Source: Bacteroidetes bacterium 2013_40CM_41_45 (GTDB lineage Bacteria; Bacteroidota; Bacteroidia; AKYH767-A; 2013-40CM-41-45). Taken from it: a stretch of DNA of 64,000 nucleotides. Shown piece after piece: positions 1,207 to 8,624 of the stretch. Positions within the stretch are counted from its first letter, which is position 1; each line of letters opens with the position of its first letter. The position numbers and the translations under genes were made by a program. The notes under the pieces were generated by a model. That model was not told where the DNA came from. It saw nothing but the letters and a program-made list of their open reading frames with translations, and searched no databases. Location of the stretch: contig NGFH01000007.1 in assembly GCA_002215675.1 (NCBI GenBank), positions 62,001-126,000 on the forward strand. The letters are read 5' to 3'.

Positions 1207-2514
1207 TCAATATAATTTAACTGAGTTTATTTTTTTTATCCCCACCAATTGGTCATATCGGCTTGCCGTGGGCCGGTGATATACCAGGATGGTGTAATCA
1301 TTTTCGGTCTCGTAATGATTGCCCTCAACTATTGTTTCATCAATGACAGGAGAAGCATCTTCGAGGAAAACATAAAGGTAATTATAATAACCCTGCTTCA
1401 GAAGCATTGCTGTACGGTATGCATTTTTTTCAGAATCATAAATCATTTTGTTTTCCTGGGTGCACTGGTTCTGAGATAACATTCCGAAAACATAAAAGTT
1501 ACCATCTGTCCTCTGGAAATCATATGGAAGATTAAAATGAACCCACGCGTAGTCAGGTTCTAATTCGTCATTTTTTCCGTCATACGTTTTAACGGAATAA
1601 TATCCGTTCAGGTCATACTCCGTTGAATAGCGCTTGTACGAACGGCTTTCATCGTCAAAGAGATAAACATGATTGATTGCAGAATCTGATTGTATTTTTT
1701 GCACCCGCTCTGTAAGATAACGTAAACTGCGTATATCAAAATTTCTGTATTCGTTGCCCCCGTTAAAATCATTCCCGGTTTCGTATGAATAATCCAATTG
1801 ATTTTCCCGGAGAAAGAGCGGCTTCAACGTACTGATTGCATTGTCCCACCTGTCGTTCTGTTGTATAACGATGGTAACATCACCGAAAGGATTATCAATT
1901 TTATAATTGTCGTAAAAAACAGAGAAGTCAATTTTTTGTTTGGAGTTCCGGTCGTCAATCACTGAAGCACGGTGAACTGCTGCCTGAATGGTAAGCTTTG
2001 GATCGGTTATCATAAATCTTTTAGTGAGCACAAGTTTGCTTCTGTCGTTATCATTAAACACCAGCAAAAGATAATTTCCGGACACTAACGGAATAAGATT
2101 GCTGTTGGGAATAATAAGACGGTAATGCGTGTATGCCTGCAGGGTATTGAATGAAAAAGAGTAATCGGTTATCCGGTCGTCAGGAAAACCGGAAAGGTAT
2201 TGGTTCGTCATCAAATCAGATGGCACCCAGTTTGCAGTACAGTGAATAAGTGTGTAATAATATTCTTTGACACCCTGTTCAAGGTCATCAAATTGAAGCA
2301 GCAGTTTGTCTTCTGTATTAAGCCGGATAATAGGTGCTGATATTTCAAAACCAACGGGCGACAACAATACTGTTTTGACATTGCCTTGATACGTGAAATC
2401 CTCGTAGCGAAGAAAATTGTTCTTAAAATATTCTGTGGTGTCCTGCGAAAATGAATTCGAAGGAAGTACCTGGTATAAAGTATTAAGTATTATGAAGAAG
2501 AGAAAATTTCTCAT
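1207..2514 (-). CDS. Type IX secretion system plug protein (DUF5103)
   Basis: The 435-residue protein begins with a signal peptide (residues 1-23, ending NSFSQ) and resembles the DUF5103 / T9SS plug family: early FLRYEDFTYQGNVKTVLLSP and LLQFDDLEQGVKEYYYTLIH, then WVPSDLMTNQYLSGFPDD. In the known T9SS translocon this periplasmic protein closes the SprA outer-membrane channel when no substrate is engaged. Length and beta-rich composition fit. It sits next to apaG and downstream of a GIN lipoprotein and a PagL-like protein, separated by very short gaps (6 and 1 nt), which suggests an operon. Several T9SS cargoes in this window agree with a working system. Other translocon genes (sprA, porV, gldKLMN) are not in the window. 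Confidence 0.88.
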   Translation of the reverse strand: MRNFLFFIILNTLYQVLPSNSFSQDTTEYFKNNFLRYEDFTYQGNVKTVLLSPVGFEISAPIIRLNTEDKLLLQFDDLEQGVKEYYYTLIHCTANWVPSDLMTNQYLSGFPDDRITDYSFSFNTLQAYTHYRLIIPNSNLIPLVSGNYLLLVFNDNDRSKLVLTKRFMITDPKLTIQAAVHRASVIDDRNSKQKIDFSVFYDNYKIDNPFGDVTIVIQQNDRWDNAISTLKPLFLRENQLDYSYETGNDFNGGNEYRNFDIRSLRYLTERVQKIQSDSAINHVYLFDDESRSYKRYSTEYDLNGYYSVKTYDGKNDELEPDYAWVHFNLPYDFQRTDGNFYVFGMLSQNQCTQENKMIYDSEKNAYRTAMLLKQGYYNYLYVFLEDASPVIDETIVEGNHYETENDYTILVYHRPTASRYDQLVGIKKINSVKLY

Positions 2515-2520
2515 TCAGTA

Positions 2521-3261
2521 TTAGTATTGAATTAATTTTCCGCTGCCGGTAATCACGGAAGAAATGGAAGGTGTGCCCTTATAATAGACATTTCCTGAAT
2601 AGGATATTTCTGCATGCAATTCATCACAGGCATTCACGTATGTTTGGCCGGTGGTGTTGCTGATTACAGTTGCATGGTTCACCATGAGCCCGGTACAATC
2701 GCAAAATCCTTGCCCGATATTGTAAACATACAGAAAGCCTGCATTACCGCTGAATGAATTATCTCCGAATGCTGCATGTTGCTTGCAGTATACTTCATTG
2801 GCAATTACATTTAAATTAATGTCTGAAGTGTTCCAATTATCCACTTCAATAATGTCGTTCACCAGAGTATTCAAAGAATAAATTTTTCCTGAACCGAAAG
2901 TGTCTAACCTTCTCAATGCCGGAAGATGCACGTAAACATTGATTGGAACACTTAAATCACGCACCCAGTTGCAGCGGTTATTATTTTCAACGATAAGTTT
3001 TCCGTCACGGATTTCGGTAACAATGAGTGGAATAAGATTTTCGCCGGCATTTACTTCAAGATAAGTGAGCGAATCCTGCACGAAAATTACGTTGACATTA
3101 TTATAAACAATCATCTCGGTAAACGCATCGATACTCCTTTGTTCGGTTATAATATCACCTGTAGATTTGAAGCAATCAAAAAGGTTTTCCTTCTTGCATG
3201 AACTGAAAACCACGCATATCAAAACGCAACAGGCAAAAGAATATTTTATTCCATTCATCAT
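2521..3261 (-). CDS. Lipoprotein with head-GIN domain (DUF2807)
   Basis: The 246-residue product has a lipoprotein signal with lipobox FSSC (Cys22) followed by KKE. The body is a series of short beta strands with the DUF2807 (head GIN, putative autotransporter adhesin) pattern: FTEMIVYNNVNVIFVQDS, LVNDIIEVDNWNTSDI and the closing SGNVYYKGTPSISSVITGSG. The family forms right-handed beta-solenoid-like domains on the cell surface or in the periplasm; its ligand is unknown. The ATG lies 1 nt after the stop of the preceding PagL-like gene and the stop is 6 nt before the plug gene, so it is almost certainly co-transcribed. The adhesin label of the family is unproven. Confidence 0.85.
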   Translation of the reverse strand: MMNGIKYSFACCVLICVVFSSCKKENLFDCFKSTGDIITEQRSIDAFTEMIVYNNVNVIFVQDSLTYLEVNAGENLIPLIVTEIRDGKLIVENNNRCNWVRDLSVPINVYVHLPALRRLDTFGSGKIYSLNTLVNDIIEVDNWNTSDINLNVIANEVYCKQHAAFGDNSFSGNAGFLYVYNIGQGFCDCTGLMVNHATVISNTTGQTYVNACDELHAEISYSGNVYYKGTPSISSVITGSGKLIQY

Positions 3262-3262
3262 A

Positions 3263-4396
3263 TCAGAATCTATATCCTAATCCTGCTTCAACATTGTCCG
3301 CCTTTCCATAGTGCGTCCGCAGCGAATAATTAATAAACCAGTGGTCTGTGCAAAAATATTTTAGCCCGATTCTGTGATATGAGCTGCCATCGCCCTTAAA
3401 AGGAGAATAAAGATAATATCCAATATCGAGCATCGCGGTAAGATGAGAGAGCATCAGTTCATTGGCAATATATACTCCCGAGCGCATACGGTTGGGAATA
3501 ACGGGAGTGTAAACTCTATCACGGGCAAAACGTTCCGTAAGAGAAAGGTCATAAATAAAATCGGTTCCGATACCAAACCGGAATTTATGACTCAGGATTT
3601 TGAACACGGCGGTGGAAACAGTCCAGGAAAAATATTTTTTTCCCCCGGTAGGATAAATTTCTTTTGGCGCTCCTCCTGCTAACACTTCAAGCCTGACTTT
3701 TTTATCAGGTTGCTGAAGAGTTTCTTTTGGAGGTACCGAGTGCGCAGAATCGAGATAAAAAATAATTCCGCTGCTCAATGAAACATTGTTAATACCAAGA
3801 TTGGGCGTTGCATAAGAACCATTTGAAAAGTGCGTAAGTCCCATGGCAAGCCGAAAATCTAATCTTTTTGAAAGCACATATTTGGTTTGAAAAAAAATCT
3901 GAATCGCTGCATTCAGCTTTGTTCCGGTCAACGTGTTCTTGTGATTCTCTATTGCATCAAACCTTTTGGTGGTAAAGCCAAATCCATCGGCAAGATGAAT
4001 AGAAAAGAGAAAATTATTTTTTCTCACAACCGGCAAATCGGCATAAGCAAGCAGGCAGATTCCATTGCCCAGTACATCAGGATTTGCAAAATCAAAATAC
4101 GCCAGGGAGAATCCTGTCTGGGGAGTATTGTAAGCCTTCTGCAACTTATTTCCATAGCCCTGCATTCCGGCATTTACCTGGAACCCGTATGTGTGCCCTG
4201 TAACAAGATGATTGACTCGATGCGAGTGAGCCATTATGAATCCATAATGCAACTGGCCTTCAATCAGAAAATGATTTTCCTGTTGCCCCCAAACGGCAAG
4301 CGACAGGCAAGTAAGGATGAGAACAACCGGTCCGATTTTCAATGTTGAATAAATTTTAAAAGCTCCGCTGTAAAGATAGCAAGCAGAAAAAATCAA
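3263..4396 (-). CDS. PagL-like acyloxyacyl hydrolase / lipid A deacylase family protein
   Basis: The 377-residue protein has a hydrophobic export segment (about residues 20-38, ending VWGQ) and a beta-barrel-like body. The segment GLTHFSNGSYATPNLGINN matches the PagL signature, where His126 and Ser128 are catalytic; here these are His189 and Ser191. The third member in PagL, Glu140, corresponds by spacing to Asn203, so the acid may be replaced or supplied elsewhere. PagL removes a 3-O acyl chain from lipid A in the outer membrane. The protein is longer than PagL (about 170 residues) because a second barrel-like part follows residue 230. The start may be internal (near residue 20). Family membership is likely; activity is not certain. 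Confidence 0.72.
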   Translation of the reverse strand: MIFSACYLYSGAFKIYSTLKIGPVVLILTCLSLAVWGQQENHFLIEGQLHYGFIMAHSHRVNHLVTGHTYGFQVNAGMQGYGNKLQKAYNTPQTGFSLAYFDFANPDVLGNGICLLAYADLPVVRKNNFLFSIHLADGFGFTTKRFDAIENHKNTLTGTKLNAAIQIFFQTKYVLSKRLDFRLAMGLTHFSNGSYATPNLGINNVSLSSGIIFYLDSAHSVPPKETLQQPDKKVRLEVLAGGAPKEIYPTGGKKYFSWTVSTAVFKILSHKFRFGIGTDFIYDLSLTERFARDRVYTPVIPNRMRSGVYIANELMLSHLTAMLDIGYYLYSPFKGDGSSYHRIGLKYFCTDHWFINYSLRTHYGKADNVEAGLGYRF

Positions 4397-4401
4397 AACG
4401 G

Positions 4402-4854
4402 TTATGGATTAACGGTAATTGCAGGAGTAGTAACTGTATTACTTGCATGTCCGGCCCTGTCGATTACATAAATTGAAAAAGTAGCGCTCTGTGGAGAAGT
4501 TCCGGTGATACCGGCATTATCAAGGATAATGTTGAGCTGACCGTAAATGAGAAGTGAAGAAGAGGTCGGAGCAAGCTGGCTGATACGATACGGATATGTA
4601 ATTCCGAAACGGTTATCCGTAAGATAAAGATTATGTGCATCAGAAGTATTTTCTCCTAAATCACCATCACCATCTGAATACGAAATCACAAAAGTTAATG
4701 GCTCACCATATGCATTGACACTGGAATGTGACACACTTTCAAACCTGAGTTCAGGAACTTCACCGTAAACGGGTTTGTCTTTTTTGCACGAGGTAAAACA
4801 AAAAACTAACGTCAGTACACAGAAGGCAAAGAAAATATTTCTGAGGTATAACAT
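4402..4854 (-). CDS. Small surface lipoprotein, family unknown
   Basis: I chose the ATG at 4854, giving 150 residues, because it begins directly with the lipoprotein signal MLYLRNIFFAFCVLTLVF and lipobox FTSC; an in-frame TTG 15 bases upstream would overlap the preceding gene. The mature part contains YSDGDGDLGEN, a calcium-loop-like acidic motif common in Bacteroidota lipoproteins, and ends in an Ig-like strand pattern (ATFSIYVIDRAGHASNTV). It follows the CX4CH lipoprotein gene by 4 nt and precedes the PagL-like gene by 5 nt, so it belongs to the same operon. I do not recognise a named family and propose no function beyond a surface lipoprotein. Confidence 0.7.
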   Translation of the reverse strand: MLYLRNIFFAFCVLTLVFCFTSCKKDKPVYGEVPELRFESVSHSSVNAYGEPLTFVISYSDGDGDLGENTSDAHNLYLTDNRFGITYPYRISQLAPTSSSLLIYGQLNIILDNAGITGTSPQSATFSIYVIDRAGHASNTVTTPAITVNP

Positions 4855-4858
4855 TATT

Positions 4859-5827
4859 TTACTGCACAATAAATGAGAAGAATAATTTATAATAAACAGG
4901 CAAGTCGCTCCGCGGAAATTCTACAGTGGCCGGATTGTTGGTGTCTTTCAGGTAATAACGGAAATATACGTGAGTGCCTGGCGCCCAAGTAACCGGAAAT
5001 ATCACCATCCAGAACTGACTCGCACCAGCGTTAATGTAACTTGCTGATACTATTTGTGCCGCACTGAAATCGTTCTCAAGAAGCGATAGCTTGCATTGGT
5101 TAACAAGTAAATTCCCCACCGCAGTACTGTCGTCCCCTACCCAAAAAATAATTCTGAGATTCGCATTAGCATTAACCAGGAAAGGATTATAGGGAACACC
5201 CATATACCTGTTGCTATCAACTATTGAGGCGTAGAAAGGGATTAAAGTCAATGAATCCAATGCATTGTAAAAGAAATGATTCCCGTCATTAACAAGGAAA
5301 GGAAGATTATTAGGCGCTGACGGAATATTTCCATTCATGTCTTTGGCTCCATTCATAATCCAGGTATTGATTTGCTGAACCTGGGTCGGAGTTAACCTGG
5401 GGCCACCCTCCGGCCTTGGCATAAAATCAGGTGTAGTGGTTACAACCCGTTCATGAAGAAAAGAATTTGCAGTATCGTAGGGAATAACTCTATATTTAAA
5501 TGTATCAATAAAGTTTACTGTTATTTTATTCACGGGTTGATAAACAAGTGTTGAATACGTTGACTGAACGCTTCTAAAATCCGGCTCAAATGTTCCGTCA
5601 TGGCAGGCGGGAACATTGCATTTCACATTGAAAATATTTTTATGTAACCCGGCGATTGAATACGGGTCGGGGTTCTGCTCTGTGGTGGTATCTGTATTGT
5701 AATTCACGCCATCGTATGGATTAGCAGGTGGCACTTGATCGTCTTTAGAACAACTGCTATAAAAAAGAACAACCCCCGCCAGGGCAGTGAGAACGATTGA
5801 AAAATATTTTACTGAAAAATATTTCAT
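4859..5827 (-). CDS. Lipoprotein with CX4CH haem-like motif
   Basis: The 322-residue product has a lipobox YSSC (Cys26). The segment VKCNVPACHDG gives Cys70-X4-Cys75-His76, resembling a c-type haem site but with four rather than two residues between the cysteines. A methionine in FMPRPEGG (Met136) followed by LTPTQVQQINTWIMNGAKD resembles the distal ligand and C-terminal helix of single-haem cytochrome domains found with planctomycete-type proteins. The rest (residues 160-322) is beta-rich with no recognised domain. It lies between the Tat-exported DUF1501 gene (9 nt upstream) and another lipoprotein (4 nt downstream). It may be an outer-membrane-attached redox partner; haem attachment is inference. 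Confidence 0.65.
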   Translation of the reverse strand: MKYFSVKYFSIVLTALAGVVLFYSSCSKDDQVPPANPYDGVNYNTDTTTEQNPDPYSIAGLHKNIFNVKCNVPACHDGTFEPDFRSVQSTYSTLVYQPVNKITVNFIDTFKYRVIPYDTANSFLHERVVTTTPDFMPRPEGGPRLTPTQVQQINTWIMNGAKDMNGNIPSAPNNLPFLVNDGNHFFYNALDSLTLIPFYASIVDSNRYMGVPYNPFLVNANANLRIIFWVGDDSTAVGNLLVNQCKLSLLENDFSAAQIVSASYINAGASQFWMVIFPVTWAPGTHVYFRYYLKDTNNPATVEFPRSDLPVYYKLFFSFIVQ

Positions 5828-5836
5828 CCCTGTAAA

Positions 5837-7189
5837 TTAAAACATGGCTTGTTGCACGGCGCAGTTAGTATACGGCCTAAGCAATCCTGAAGGAATATCA
5901 TTATCATAACCAAGGATACGCGAAATGAGAGGAACAATTTCAATACTTTCTCCCTGCACAGCAGTAATCACCTGTGCTTGATGGACAACACTCGGAGGTC
6001 CTGCAACAAGGCAGAAAATTTCTCTTGCCACCTGGTCGCCACCCTGGGTTACTTCGGGAGCGGTATGGTCGAGTGCAAACCTTCCGTATGCATCTACAAT
6101 TGAATTAGCCAGGGAATTTCTTCCATGCTCAGGAGCTACAATCAATATGGTATCGTTCGCCATTCCCGGAGTTGCCTGAATAGTGTTCCATAAATGAGCT
6201 ACTGCCCAATCTGCTTTACGAAGGTTGTTACAGTATTGCGTAAAGTTCGTATGGCAAATGTCCACATCCTGCATGTTGACCACAAGAAGTTCAGGAGCGC
6301 GGTTCAATGTAGCGAGGTACTTAATTATTTCTTCAGCGAAAAAAACATTATACATGTCGTTGCTCATCACGTTAGCTGGAAGATTCCAGGGGTTATTGAA
6401 TTGTCCGGCAACGGCACGCGTGAATAAATCATTTATGAAAGCATTGACAATGACTGCATCTGCTTCGGTATTGGTTACACCGGCTGAATTATTTTCGTAA
6501 CTCACCGGGAAATTATTATCCATAAACGATTTAATATTCTTGACCACCGCTTCTTCCGTACTCGAAAATAAATGGGGGTTGCCTATGGCATCGTAGGAAT
6601 CTAAGCTGACTAAAAAAGTGGGCGCAATAAAATTAGCTCCGTACGCAGAGCCATACCCTGAGTATTTGCTATAGTTAAGCGAAGGAAACGGGCCAAGGGA
6701 ATTTGAAACCCACCAGGCGTTAAGAGCGGTTTGCTGCGGTGAATTATGCTTGCGGTAATATTCAAATACAGTCGGCATGTTGGGGTTATCTCTTATGCTC
6801 AGGTCGGCATTGGTGTAATTGCCGGTAATAGCTGTTGCATGGCCGTTATAATGTCCCGTGGGCCCGGCTCCATATCTGAATTCATTGAAAAGTGTACCGT
6901 AATTCTGAAGCGCCTGCGGCAGCGGAGAAGCAGGAAGCGGCTGCATGGCAGGAGCAATATCAGGAGAAATGGCTTCTGTTCCGTTGAGAATGCCGCGCAT
7001 TAAATTGCCTTCCGCTTTTTGAATGGAGTCAAGATTCCTTACTCCGCCTGCAAACAAACAGAATACAACATGGTTTGCAAGACGCGAACCGGTGGCAGCA
7101 AACAGCCGCCCCGATGGAAGAATATAAGGAACCGCAAAAGCGCCTGCTGTCGCTGCTCCCACTCTCTTTACAAAGTCTCTTCTTTTCAT
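5837..7189 (-). CDS. Tat-exported DUF1501 / alkaline-phosphatase-like protein
   Basis: The 450-residue protein starts MKRRDFVKRVG, a twin-arginine signal followed by a hydrophobic stretch ending near residue 31. The body fits the DUF1501 family, which shares the alkaline phosphatase/sulfatase fold: VNMQDVDICHTNFTQYC carries possible metal ligands (Asp, His), and LIVAPEHGRN is the expected second metal-site strand. DUF1501 proteins are exported, and in planctomycetes and Bacteroidota are encoded next to DUF1549/DUF1800 partners; no substrate has been shown. Here the upstream neighbours are two lipoproteins with LGR-P-type repeats and the downstream neighbour is the CX4CH lipoprotein. The gaps are 16 and 9 nt, so the group is probably one functional unit. 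Confidence 0.78.
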   Translation of the reverse strand: MKRRDFVKRVGAATAGAFAVPYILPSGRLFAATGSRLANHVVFCLFAGGVRNLDSIQKAEGNLMRGILNGTEAISPDIAPAMQPLPASPLPQALQNYGTLFNEFRYGAGPTGHYNGHATAITGNYTNADLSIRDNPNMPTVFEYYRKHNSPQQTALNAWWVSNSLGPFPSLNYSKYSGYGSAYGANFIAPTFLVSLDSYDAIGNPHLFSSTEEAVVKNIKSFMDNNFPVSYENNSAGVTNTEADAVIVNAFINDLFTRAVAGQFNNPWNLPANVMSNDMYNVFFAEEIIKYLATLNRAPELLVVNMQDVDICHTNFTQYCNNLRKADWAVAHLWNTIQATPGMANDTILIVAPEHGRNSLANSIVDAYGRFALDHTAPEVTQGGDQVAREIFCLVAGPPSVVHQAQVITAVQGESIEIVPLISRILGYDNDIPSGLLRPYTNCAVQQAMF

Positions 7190-7205
7190 CAGAATATGTT
7201 ATATG

Positions 7206-7685
7206 CTAATAATATCTATACTCATTTGAGGTCATGAATGAATAGTACATCATTTCAGACGTGATGCTGGTATCGTTTTGAACCAGGTTTTTCAGATAAT
7301 ATTTTTCAAACTCATTGGGGTTGCGGTTGAACAATTTTTTATACGAGTTCGTGATGAATGTCGGGATATCGTTTCTCATTACTTGCGATGTAGGAATATT
7401 GGTTCCCGGCAAATCAAGAAAGTTGCGGATAATCCGGTCTTCAATCAGTTTCTTGTCTCCAAAAGCCGAGTATGCCGTAAACAACTTTGCTAAATCATCA
7501 TTGGAAATCGTAGTGCCGAACAAGTCAGCATATGCTATGGAAATAAATTCTGTAGTTGACTTAGCCGTTCCCTTTACACCGCTCTGCTGCTTAACATCAA
7601 CATTCTTTACGTCAAAAACGTATGTTTTCTCTTTTGAGCAGCTGACTGCAACCGCAAGAATCGCTATGACAAATATTTTTTTCAT
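7206..7685 (-). CDS. Small lipoprotein with a YKxLFxRxPxxxE...SNEY module
   Basis: The 159-residue product has a short lipoprotein signal with lipobox AVSC (Cys16). Its C-terminal half, SYKKLFNRNPNEFEKYYLKN followed by SFMTSNEYRYY, resembles the module seen twice in the protein encoded just upstream and broadly resembles DUF4214 (LY..lLgR.Pd..g ... S.Ey). I cannot assign a function. It is followed after 16 nt by the DUF1501 gene and preceded after 21 nt by the longer lipoprotein gene. The shared module suggests that the two lipoproteins work together, possibly as a structural partner of the DUF1501 protein. Confidence 0.68.
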   Translation of the reverse strand: MKKIFVIAILAVAVSCSKEKTYVFDVKNVDVKQQSGVKGTAKSTTEFISIAYADLFGTTISNDDLAKLFTAYSAFGDKKLIEDRIIRNFLDLPGTNIPTSQVMRNDIPTFITNSYKKLFNRNPNEFEKYYLKNLVQNDTSITSEMMYYSFMTSNEYRYY

Positions 7686-7706
7686 TCTCTTTACAAATTA
7701 ATGAAT

Positions 7707-8624
7707 CTAGTTATTGATGCCGATAAATTCATCTTTTGATAAAATAGATTTCTGAAGTTCTACATAATCATCATTTTGTATGTAGAGCAATGTTCCGCTG
7801 GTCATTTCTACCGATGTGGGGGTGCGGAACAGATATTGCTTATATAAACCTCTTACTTCTCCCTCGTAAAAATCAATGGAACTGAAAAAGATATTTTCAA
7901 AATCATGTTTGCTCAGACCTGCTGTAAGAAATATAACTGACGAAGTTCCATTTACCATAGTAACACCTGCGGTAATTTCGTTCTGAGTAGGATATCGGTC
8001 AAGAAAATGTTGAAAAATAGAAACCACAAAATTAAAAGAGCCCATGTTGAGCTCATCGTAAAATGAATTGTCGATGTACCTGCGCTGAACTTCCTTAAAT
8101 TTGATAACGCCCGCAGCGAGCGAATCGGGAATTTCTTTCATTTTGTTCAACCGGTTTATTTCTATCTGTATATCATTCCAGAAAAGCATATATGATGTGT
8201 CCGTCAACAGGAGTTGATAAAGGAAAATGCGGCCGGTTATTTCAGCCGTGTCCATCCCCCCTAATAATTCTATCCTGGCCCGTTCGCAAAACTTATCTTT
8301 AAATTCCGGGTTCGAAAAAACATTATCAAGAAACTGGTTGCGGCTACTCATGGAAAGATTTTGCGAAAGCAGCAGGTTAAGTCCTGAATTTAATTCGGCA
8401 GTGCTTGGCTCCCTGCCAAGTGTGCTGATGTAAACTTTATTTACATAGTTTTCAATGATAACAGGGTTAATCGTTTGGTCAGGCGGAGCCTGGTTGCCGG
8501 GGATATGGTCTTCCACATATCTTTTACAGGATGAAAATAAAATCACAGCCCCCATCAGCAGAAGCAGAGAAAAAGAAATGAAACTTTTTTTACCTGTCAA
8601 TACCGGGTTTAAAAATCCTTTCAT
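7707..8624 (-). CDS. Lipoprotein with LGRxPxxxE repeats (DUF4214/DUF1800-like)
   Basis: The ATG at 8624 gives 305 residues starting with a lipoprotein signal and lipobox FSSC (Cys33). A longer in-frame start would overlap the upstream peptidase gene by 47 nt and put 31 charged residues before the signal, so I rejected it. The protein carries VNKVYISTLGREPSTAEL, FQHFLDRYPTQNEITAG and LYKQYLFRTPTSVEMTSG, each followed some 20-30 residues later by a helix ending in a SNPEF- or SKDEF-like motif. Such repeats recall DUF4214 and the N-terminal part of DUF1800/DUF1549 partners of DUF1501. It is the first lipoprotein of the DUF1501 group. Function unknown. Confidence 0.7.
   Translation of the reverse strand: MKGFLNPVLTGKKSFISFSLLLLMGAVILFSSCKRYVEDHIPGNQAPPDQTINPVIIENYVNKVYISTLGREPSTAELNSGLNLLLSQNLSMSSRNQFLDNVFSNPEFKDKFCERARIELLGGMDTAEITGRIFLYQLLLTDTSYMLFWNDIQIEINRLNKMKEIPDSLAAGVIKFKEVQRRYIDNSFYDELNMGSFNFVVSIFQHFLDRYPTQNEITAGVTMVNGTSSVIFLTAGLSKHDFENIFFSSIDFYEGEVRGLYKQYLFRTPTSVEMTSGTLLYIQNDDYVELQKSILSKDEFIGINN

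Follow-up and report, generated by a model that had tools for sequence, protein, structure and literature searches.

DUF1501 proteins carry a twin-arginine motif and are predicted to share one operon with DUF1800 proteins, together with chitin synthases, their function being unknown (PMC5122149); DUF1501 clusters also occur in PVC bacteria (PMC4452313). PSCyt2 and PSCyt3 genes adjoin two conserved families of unknown function, and the function of the PSCyt proteins is likewise unknown (PMC5615132), while PSD1 and PSCyt2 domains number 41 copies each in one planctomycete genome, that of Rhodopirellula (PMC2754498). Across the literature that we searched, DUF1501 and its partners DUF1800 and PSCyt/PSD had no assigned function. 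Here we analyse a 64,000-nucleotide stretch of the genome of Bacteroidetes bacterium 2013_40CM_41_45 (contig NGFH01000007.1, positions 62,001 to 126,000; hereafter the window), in which five minus-strand open reading frames (ORFs) at 4402-8624 encode four lipoproteins and one protein with a twin-arginine (Tat) export signal. This cassette is a strongly conserved, uncharacterised five-protein envelope system that is not DUF1501, PSCyt1 or DUF1800 by curated thresholds. Its genes, from the upstream end, are:

8624-7707, minus strand: LGRP1, 305 amino acids, a lipoprotein with LGR-P (DUF4214 / phycobilisome-linker-like) modules, lipid Cys33 and the acidic stretch KRYVED after the Cys
7685-7206, minus strand: LGRP2, 159 amino acids, a lipoprotein with a single LGR-P module and lipid Cys16, conserved in position
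7189-5837, minus strand: the Tat protein, 450 amino acids, Tat-exported, DUF1501-like, with an alkaline-phosphatase-superfamily fold
5827-4859, minus strand: the CX4CH lipoprotein, 322 amino acids, with a PSCyt1-type cytochrome domain, a C-terminal beta-sandwich, lipid Cys26 and the export-signal-like SKDDQV
4854-4402, minus strand: the small lipoprotein, 150 amino acids, Ig-like by sequence pattern, with a conserved DGDGDLGE; last gene of the block

An earlier sequence-only reading had described five same-direction genes spaced by 21, 16, 9 and 4 nt and had counted four lipoproteins and one Tat substrate. An ORF check confirmed the coordinates, the lipobox Cys proved invariant in four of the five families (27-33 aligned relatives per family), and the twin-arginine signal scored 17.2 bits against the TIGR01409 cut-off of 16.7. 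The small lipoprotein starts at ATG 4854. For LGRP1, a lipoprotein signal backs ATG 8624, which we preferred to a longer frame from TTG 8717 that overlaps the upstream peptidase gene. A promoter scan of the region gave chance-level results and terminator-like sites numbered 14 against 7.5 expected by chance, mostly within genes; neither was used.

The gene order is conserved far beyond chance. When 100 related genomes were searched with the Tat protein, 44 had a match, with identity falling to about 40% in a second subfamily. From other Bacteroidia genomes we fetched 40 loci; hidden Markov models (HMMs) of the five families recovered the full order LGRP1-LGRP2-Tat-CX4CH-small lipoprotein in 38. 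A wider scan of 84,980 species genomes returned 337 Tat relatives, of which the best 80, nearly all from metagenome-assembled (uncultured) Bacteroidota, were kept. Among these 80, 60 contigs had enough flanking sequence for the order to be counted, and 56 carried the complete block (57 if one also counts contig L179, which has a CX4CH frame that is either split or present in duplicate). Neither a loss of synteny in relatives nor a dispersal of the proteins among unrelated characterised families, the two outcomes that the sequence-only reading had named as telling against it, was found. The edges of the block are sharp and no further neighbour is constant among loci; an M20 peptidase lies upstream in 24 of 80 subfamily-A loci. 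A plasmid-borne cassette was looked for and none was found.

Relative to the DUF1800-DUF1501 pair (PF08811-PF07394), the cassette likewise encodes a Tat-exported alkaline-phosphatase-like protein directly after a helical partner and has the D..H, E.GR and DH motifs in common with it. Unlike the pair, it contains no DUF1800; the helical role falls to two distinct lipoproteins, each with a signal peptide of its own, and a cytochrome-type and a small lipoprotein are added. The two arrangements coexist in the host, which has two ordinary DUF1800-DUF1501 pairs elsewhere, with the partner gene ahead of DUF1501 (for example at C3:321353/320205); a DUF1800 search of the host genome found two other loci only, none near the cassette. 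Within the phylum, DUF1501 and DUF1800 co-occur in the same 25 of 61 genomes, and in an annotated pair on the Azospirillum plasmid pAB510f the partner gene again comes first. The PSCyt1-PSCyt2(DUF1549)-PSD1(DUF1553) systems of Planctomycetes and Verrucomicrobia resemble the cassette in combining a PSCyt1-type domain and LGR-P-type helical modules with a DUF1501-like protein, but they fuse these domains in long proteins where the cassette has separate lipoproteins. A PSD1 search of 61 Bacteroidota genomes gave no match, as did its controls, and is uninformative on absence.

The Tat protein had been labelled DUF1501, a label that stands at the level of the superfamily but falls short of the curated threshold at that of the family. 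By the curated threshold it is not a DUF1501 member: the protein itself has no Pfam match, a DUF1501 search of the host genome also misses it, and only 1 of 29 family members matches DUF1501 (E 0.0032, 17.1 bits against a cut-off of 27). Matches within the family are instead to Phosphodiest (8 of 29 members, best 3.9e-5) and also to Sulfatase. Its AlphaFold model (pLDDT 84, pTM 0.83) lies closest to the phosphatase PafA in a structure search (Z 27.4, rmsd 3.7, 308 residues), followed by sulfatases and nucleotide phosphodiesterases (NPPs) at Z 23-25, and has the fold of the alkaline phosphatase superfamily (Z 23-27 overall). Against Bacteroidota DUF1501, hhalign gave probability 78 (E 1.8e-5) over the D..H / E.GR / DH region, with DUF1800 as control reaching 1.9. 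A search of the Tat profile against PDB sequences returned only chance matches to topoisomerases and was set aside.

Residues invariant among the 29 Tat sequences are AGG.R (47-51), G112-H113, D310, H313, E354, G356, R357, D374 and H375. In 30 canonical DUF1501 proteins the corresponding patterns are GG[NPA], SH[FYW] (27 of 30), and DTH, E[FH]GR and DH[GW] (30 of 30 each); where canonical DUF1501 has GGND, the Tat protein has GG[VI]R. The sites map as follows:

7088..7189, minus strand: twin-arginine signal peptide, approximately residues 1-34 (MKRRDFVKR...RLFAA), TIGR01409
6851..6853, minus strand: His113 codon, invariant in 29, in the tentative register of the PafA Thr79 nucleophile
6251..6262, minus strand: D310-x-x-H313, predicted metal ligands, invariant, equivalent to DTH of canonical DUF1501
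6119..6130, minus strand: E354-[HC]-G-R357, with E354, G356 and R357 invariant, equivalent to E[FH]GR of canonical DUF1501
6065..6070, minus strand: D374-H375, predicted metal ligands, invariant, equivalent to DH[GW] of canonical DUF1501

A local register of PTGHYNGHATAITG (Tat) against PTHTAPGHATIFTG (PafA homologues) puts His113 at Thr79, the PafA nucleophile. The register is tentative, with hhalign probability below 1% (0.9 per cent against PafA, 0.5 per cent against NPP), and was drawn from local alignment and motif matching only. If it is right, the M1-type ligands appear to be kept, the strand-1 M2-type Asp ligand appears as Ala47, and His113 appears to replace the Thr, Ser or Cys nucleophile of the superfamily. 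Because the same His is present in canonical DUF1501, the substitution would then extend to the whole DUF1501 family, and the 'hydrolase' label for the Tat protein becomes uncertain.

The haem-like motif that had been noted in a third lipoprotein is borne out by its conservation and by the domain that contains it. In the CX4CH lipoprotein we located:

5600..5620, minus strand: C70-x4-C75-H76, predicted haem-c attachment motif, invariant in 32 aligned sequences
5417..5422, minus strand: M136-P137, likely distal haem ligand region, invariant in 32 sequences
4862..5311, minus strand: Ig-like beta-sandwich, residues 173-322, from the predicted model, with the PPAD IgSF domain as best match

Against PSCyt1 proteins, hhalign gave probability 99.1 (E 1.6e-18), over a region that takes in part of the signal peptide, and the N-terminal half conserves a PSCyt1-like succession of CX4CH, P..S.L..R, MP and WI..GA in sequence order. 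None of the 32 members reaches the Pfam PSCyt1 (PF07635) cut-off. The Bacteroidota proteins that do match Pfam PSCyt1 include CX2CH and CX4CH forms, so the wider spacing is ordinary for the phylum. A CcsA-type haem-lyase family protein is present in the host and in 98 of the 100 genomes, making covalent haem on the CX4CH protein possible; TatC is present in the host and in 94 of the 100. The CX4CH lipoprotein is probably a one-haem cytochrome. The predicted model itself shows no haem. Over 105 residues, its C-terminal sandwich matches the PPAD IgSF domain best, with Z 9.3, and structure searches with the model returned the beta-sandwich only, with no Foldseek match at E <1e-3, a result that leaves room for a cytochrome match outside those listed. 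In a search of the profile against PDB sequences FoxE alone appeared, weakly (E 0.013), and was not used as evidence. Outside the window, the host encodes another PSCyt1-type protein with CX4CH, of about 482 amino acids (G000:C5:31538-31669).

The repeat module reported in two lipoproteins is likewise real, being the LGR-P (DUF4214 / phycobilisome-linker) module. LGRP1 scores 25.3 bits against the DUF4214 (PF13946) cut-off of 23.2; LGRP2 falls below it at 20.7 bits, yet 21 of its 28 relatives match. Among 33 LGRP1 relatives, 28 match DUF4214 and 8 match PBS_linker, and the LGRP1 profile finds solved phycobilisome linkers in the PDB (6.5e-11). Such linkers (PF13946, PF00427) organise assemblies; the cassette proteins differ from phycobilisome linkers in being lipid-anchored, outside phototrophs and partnered with a Tat protein. 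Similarity of LGRP1 relatives to the partners of DUF1501 lies below threshold: PSD1 in 5 of 33 (best E 0.0028, 17.5 bits against a cut-off of 28.5), PSCyt2 in one (E 0.02) and DUF1800 in one. The last LGR-P module of LGRP1 was aligned to a similar part of DUF1800 by two methods (probability 52; E 0.04), and on these alignments it is plausible that the module is common to LGRP1, DUF1800 and PSD1. For the small lipoprotein, a Pfam search gave no match, and direct comparison of the Tat, CX4CH and small proteins with Pfam and NCBIfam yielded no usable family.

We applied a published acidic criterion for lipoprotein surface export (PMC12578637), counting at least two acidic residues among the six after the lipid Cys. 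In the window, the CX4CH lipoprotein and LGRP1 have such an acidic stretch, and LGRP2 and the small lipoprotein do not; among aligned sequences it is present in 24 of 32 CX4CH proteins, 28 of 33 LGRP1, 14 of 28 LGRP2 and 19 of 27 small lipoproteins. This pattern suggests that the lipoproteins may lie at the cell surface. The cassette Tat protein has no type IX (surface-secretion) domain and should remain periplasmic unless carried. Many canonical Bacteroidota DUF1501 proteins (L002, L078-L101) have both a Tat signal and an apparent type IX C-terminal domain, which looks like Tat export followed by surface secretion. Canonical Bacteroidota DUF1800 proteins (L129-L158) mostly have no clear N-terminal hydrophobic signal, the DUF1501 partner being the Tat substrate, and this suggests that DUF1800 may be exported by hitch-hiking with DUF1501 through Tat.

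The best reading of these results is that a DUF1501-like core is surrounded by lipoproteins, which divide between them the role of DUF1800 or PSCyt2/PSD1 and that of a cytochrome. From the computed gene block, conservation, folds, homologies and invariant residues we infer co-transcription and a physical complex, with haem, metal and electron transfer, and we consider it an even call that the cassette is a single operon encoding a Bacteroidia envelope complex, a split-up version of the DUF1800-DUF1501 and PSCyt1-PSCyt2-PSD1/DUF1501 systems. In such a complex the Tat protein would fold in the cytoplasm, probably with metal, before export, as the Tat route suggests for both folding and metal loading. 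It would serve as the core, with one predicted metal site (D310, H313, D374 and H375, with E354) and His113 at the place of the nucleophile. LGRP1 and LGRP2, whose lipid anchors and linker-type modules suggest core holders, would tether it to the outer membrane. Through one c-type haem, the CX4CH lipoprotein could pass electrons to or from the core, a transfer suggested by the invariant haem motif, and its beta-sandwich and the small lipoprotein may act as docking or surface modules. By analogy with the sulfatase and phosphodiesterase folds and with the PSCyt genes, the most likely substrate, weakly indicated, would be an oxyanion-bearing or carbohydrate envelope polymer. A bolder and doubtful extension is a haem-coupled outer-membrane metalloenzyme, in which a His-for-nucleophile core, fed by the mono-haem cytochrome and clamped by the linker-like lipoproteins, would act on a substrate in the envelope or outside the cell by a reaction that depends on electron transfer.

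Several results weigh against the single envelope complex. Two Cytophagales contigs (L230 and L231) carry the Tat gene alone, at 49-51% Tat identity and with the other four genes absent nearby, and L238 carries only Tat and CX4CH; all three have room for the full set, so the Tat protein can occur without the rest. Mirror-tree correlations among block proteins (r 0.57-0.82) do not exceed those of a neighbouring-peptidase control (0.68-0.88), and co-evolution thus lends no support to contact. On the export pattern given above, the outer membrane may separate the lipoproteins from the Tat protein. As for the proposed division of roles, separate PSCyt1-type and LGR-P lipoproteins do exist, but the LGR-P link to DUF1800, DUF1549 and DUF1553 is weak (LGRP1 against DUF1800 reaches only probability 52 by hhalign), and in HMM searches for DUF1501/PSCyt/DUF4214-type families no block protein other than LGRP1, which passes for DUF4214, reaches a Pfam cut-off.

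The alternative that survives best, though we think it rather unlikely, is a purely hydrolytic or binding complex, with the Tat protein as a periplasmic phosphatase- or sulfatase-like enzyme and the PSCyt1-like domain as a non-redox scaffold. It would fit a Tat fold nearest to phosphatases and sulfatases, the retention of one metal-ligand set, and a CX4CH beta-sandwich that resembles carbohydrate-binding and Ig modules. It sits poorly with the apparent His at the nucleophile slot and Ala47 at the strand-1 Asp ligand, and the invariance of CX4CH and the distal Met in 32 of 32 sequences is hard to account for without haem. That the genes encode merely co-expressed envelope proteins, with the Tat protein acting alone in the periplasm, would explain the Tat-only contigs, the co-evolution signal no higher than that of a neighbouring gene, and an export-signal pattern that places the lipoproteins and not the Tat protein at the surface; an order nearly always kept despite deep divergence (Tat identity down to about 38%), and the parallel DUF1800-DUF1501 pairs in the same genomes, make this quite unlikely. 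Least probable of all is that the Tat protein, with an alkaline-phosphatase fold but no catalytic activity, has a binding or signalling role in a surface adhesin or gliding-related complex: an apparently replaced nucleophile and metal ligand and a type IX-type CUB/PKD neighbour in 8 of 10 subfamily-B loci speak for it, but the invariant His/Asp/Glu cluster points to a retained active site and that neighbour is absent from most loci.

The single envelope complex remains our preferred account. By splitting domains that are elsewhere fused in single genes, the cassette renders core, anchor, haem and accessory roles separable for deletion or purification, and it yields a set list of invariant residues for testing. 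For an alkaline-phosphatase fold to have an invariant His where the nucleophile appears to sit would be an oddity at the level of the superfamily. The haem-coupled metalloenzyme, if true, would add a new reaction type to the superfamily and give the DUF1501 family its first function.

Genes around the block vary. In subfamily B, a CUB/PKD/CHU_C type IX secreted protein of about 1170-1194 amino acids is encoded downstream in the 8 of 10 loci mentioned above (examples are L064:9621-13205 and L071:1854-5414). In the window, the genes directly downstream of the cassette on the same strand (1207-4342), whose products are a PagL-like lipid A deacylase-type protein, a DUF2807 lipoprotein and, at 434 bits, a type IX secretion plug protein, lie outside the conserved block.

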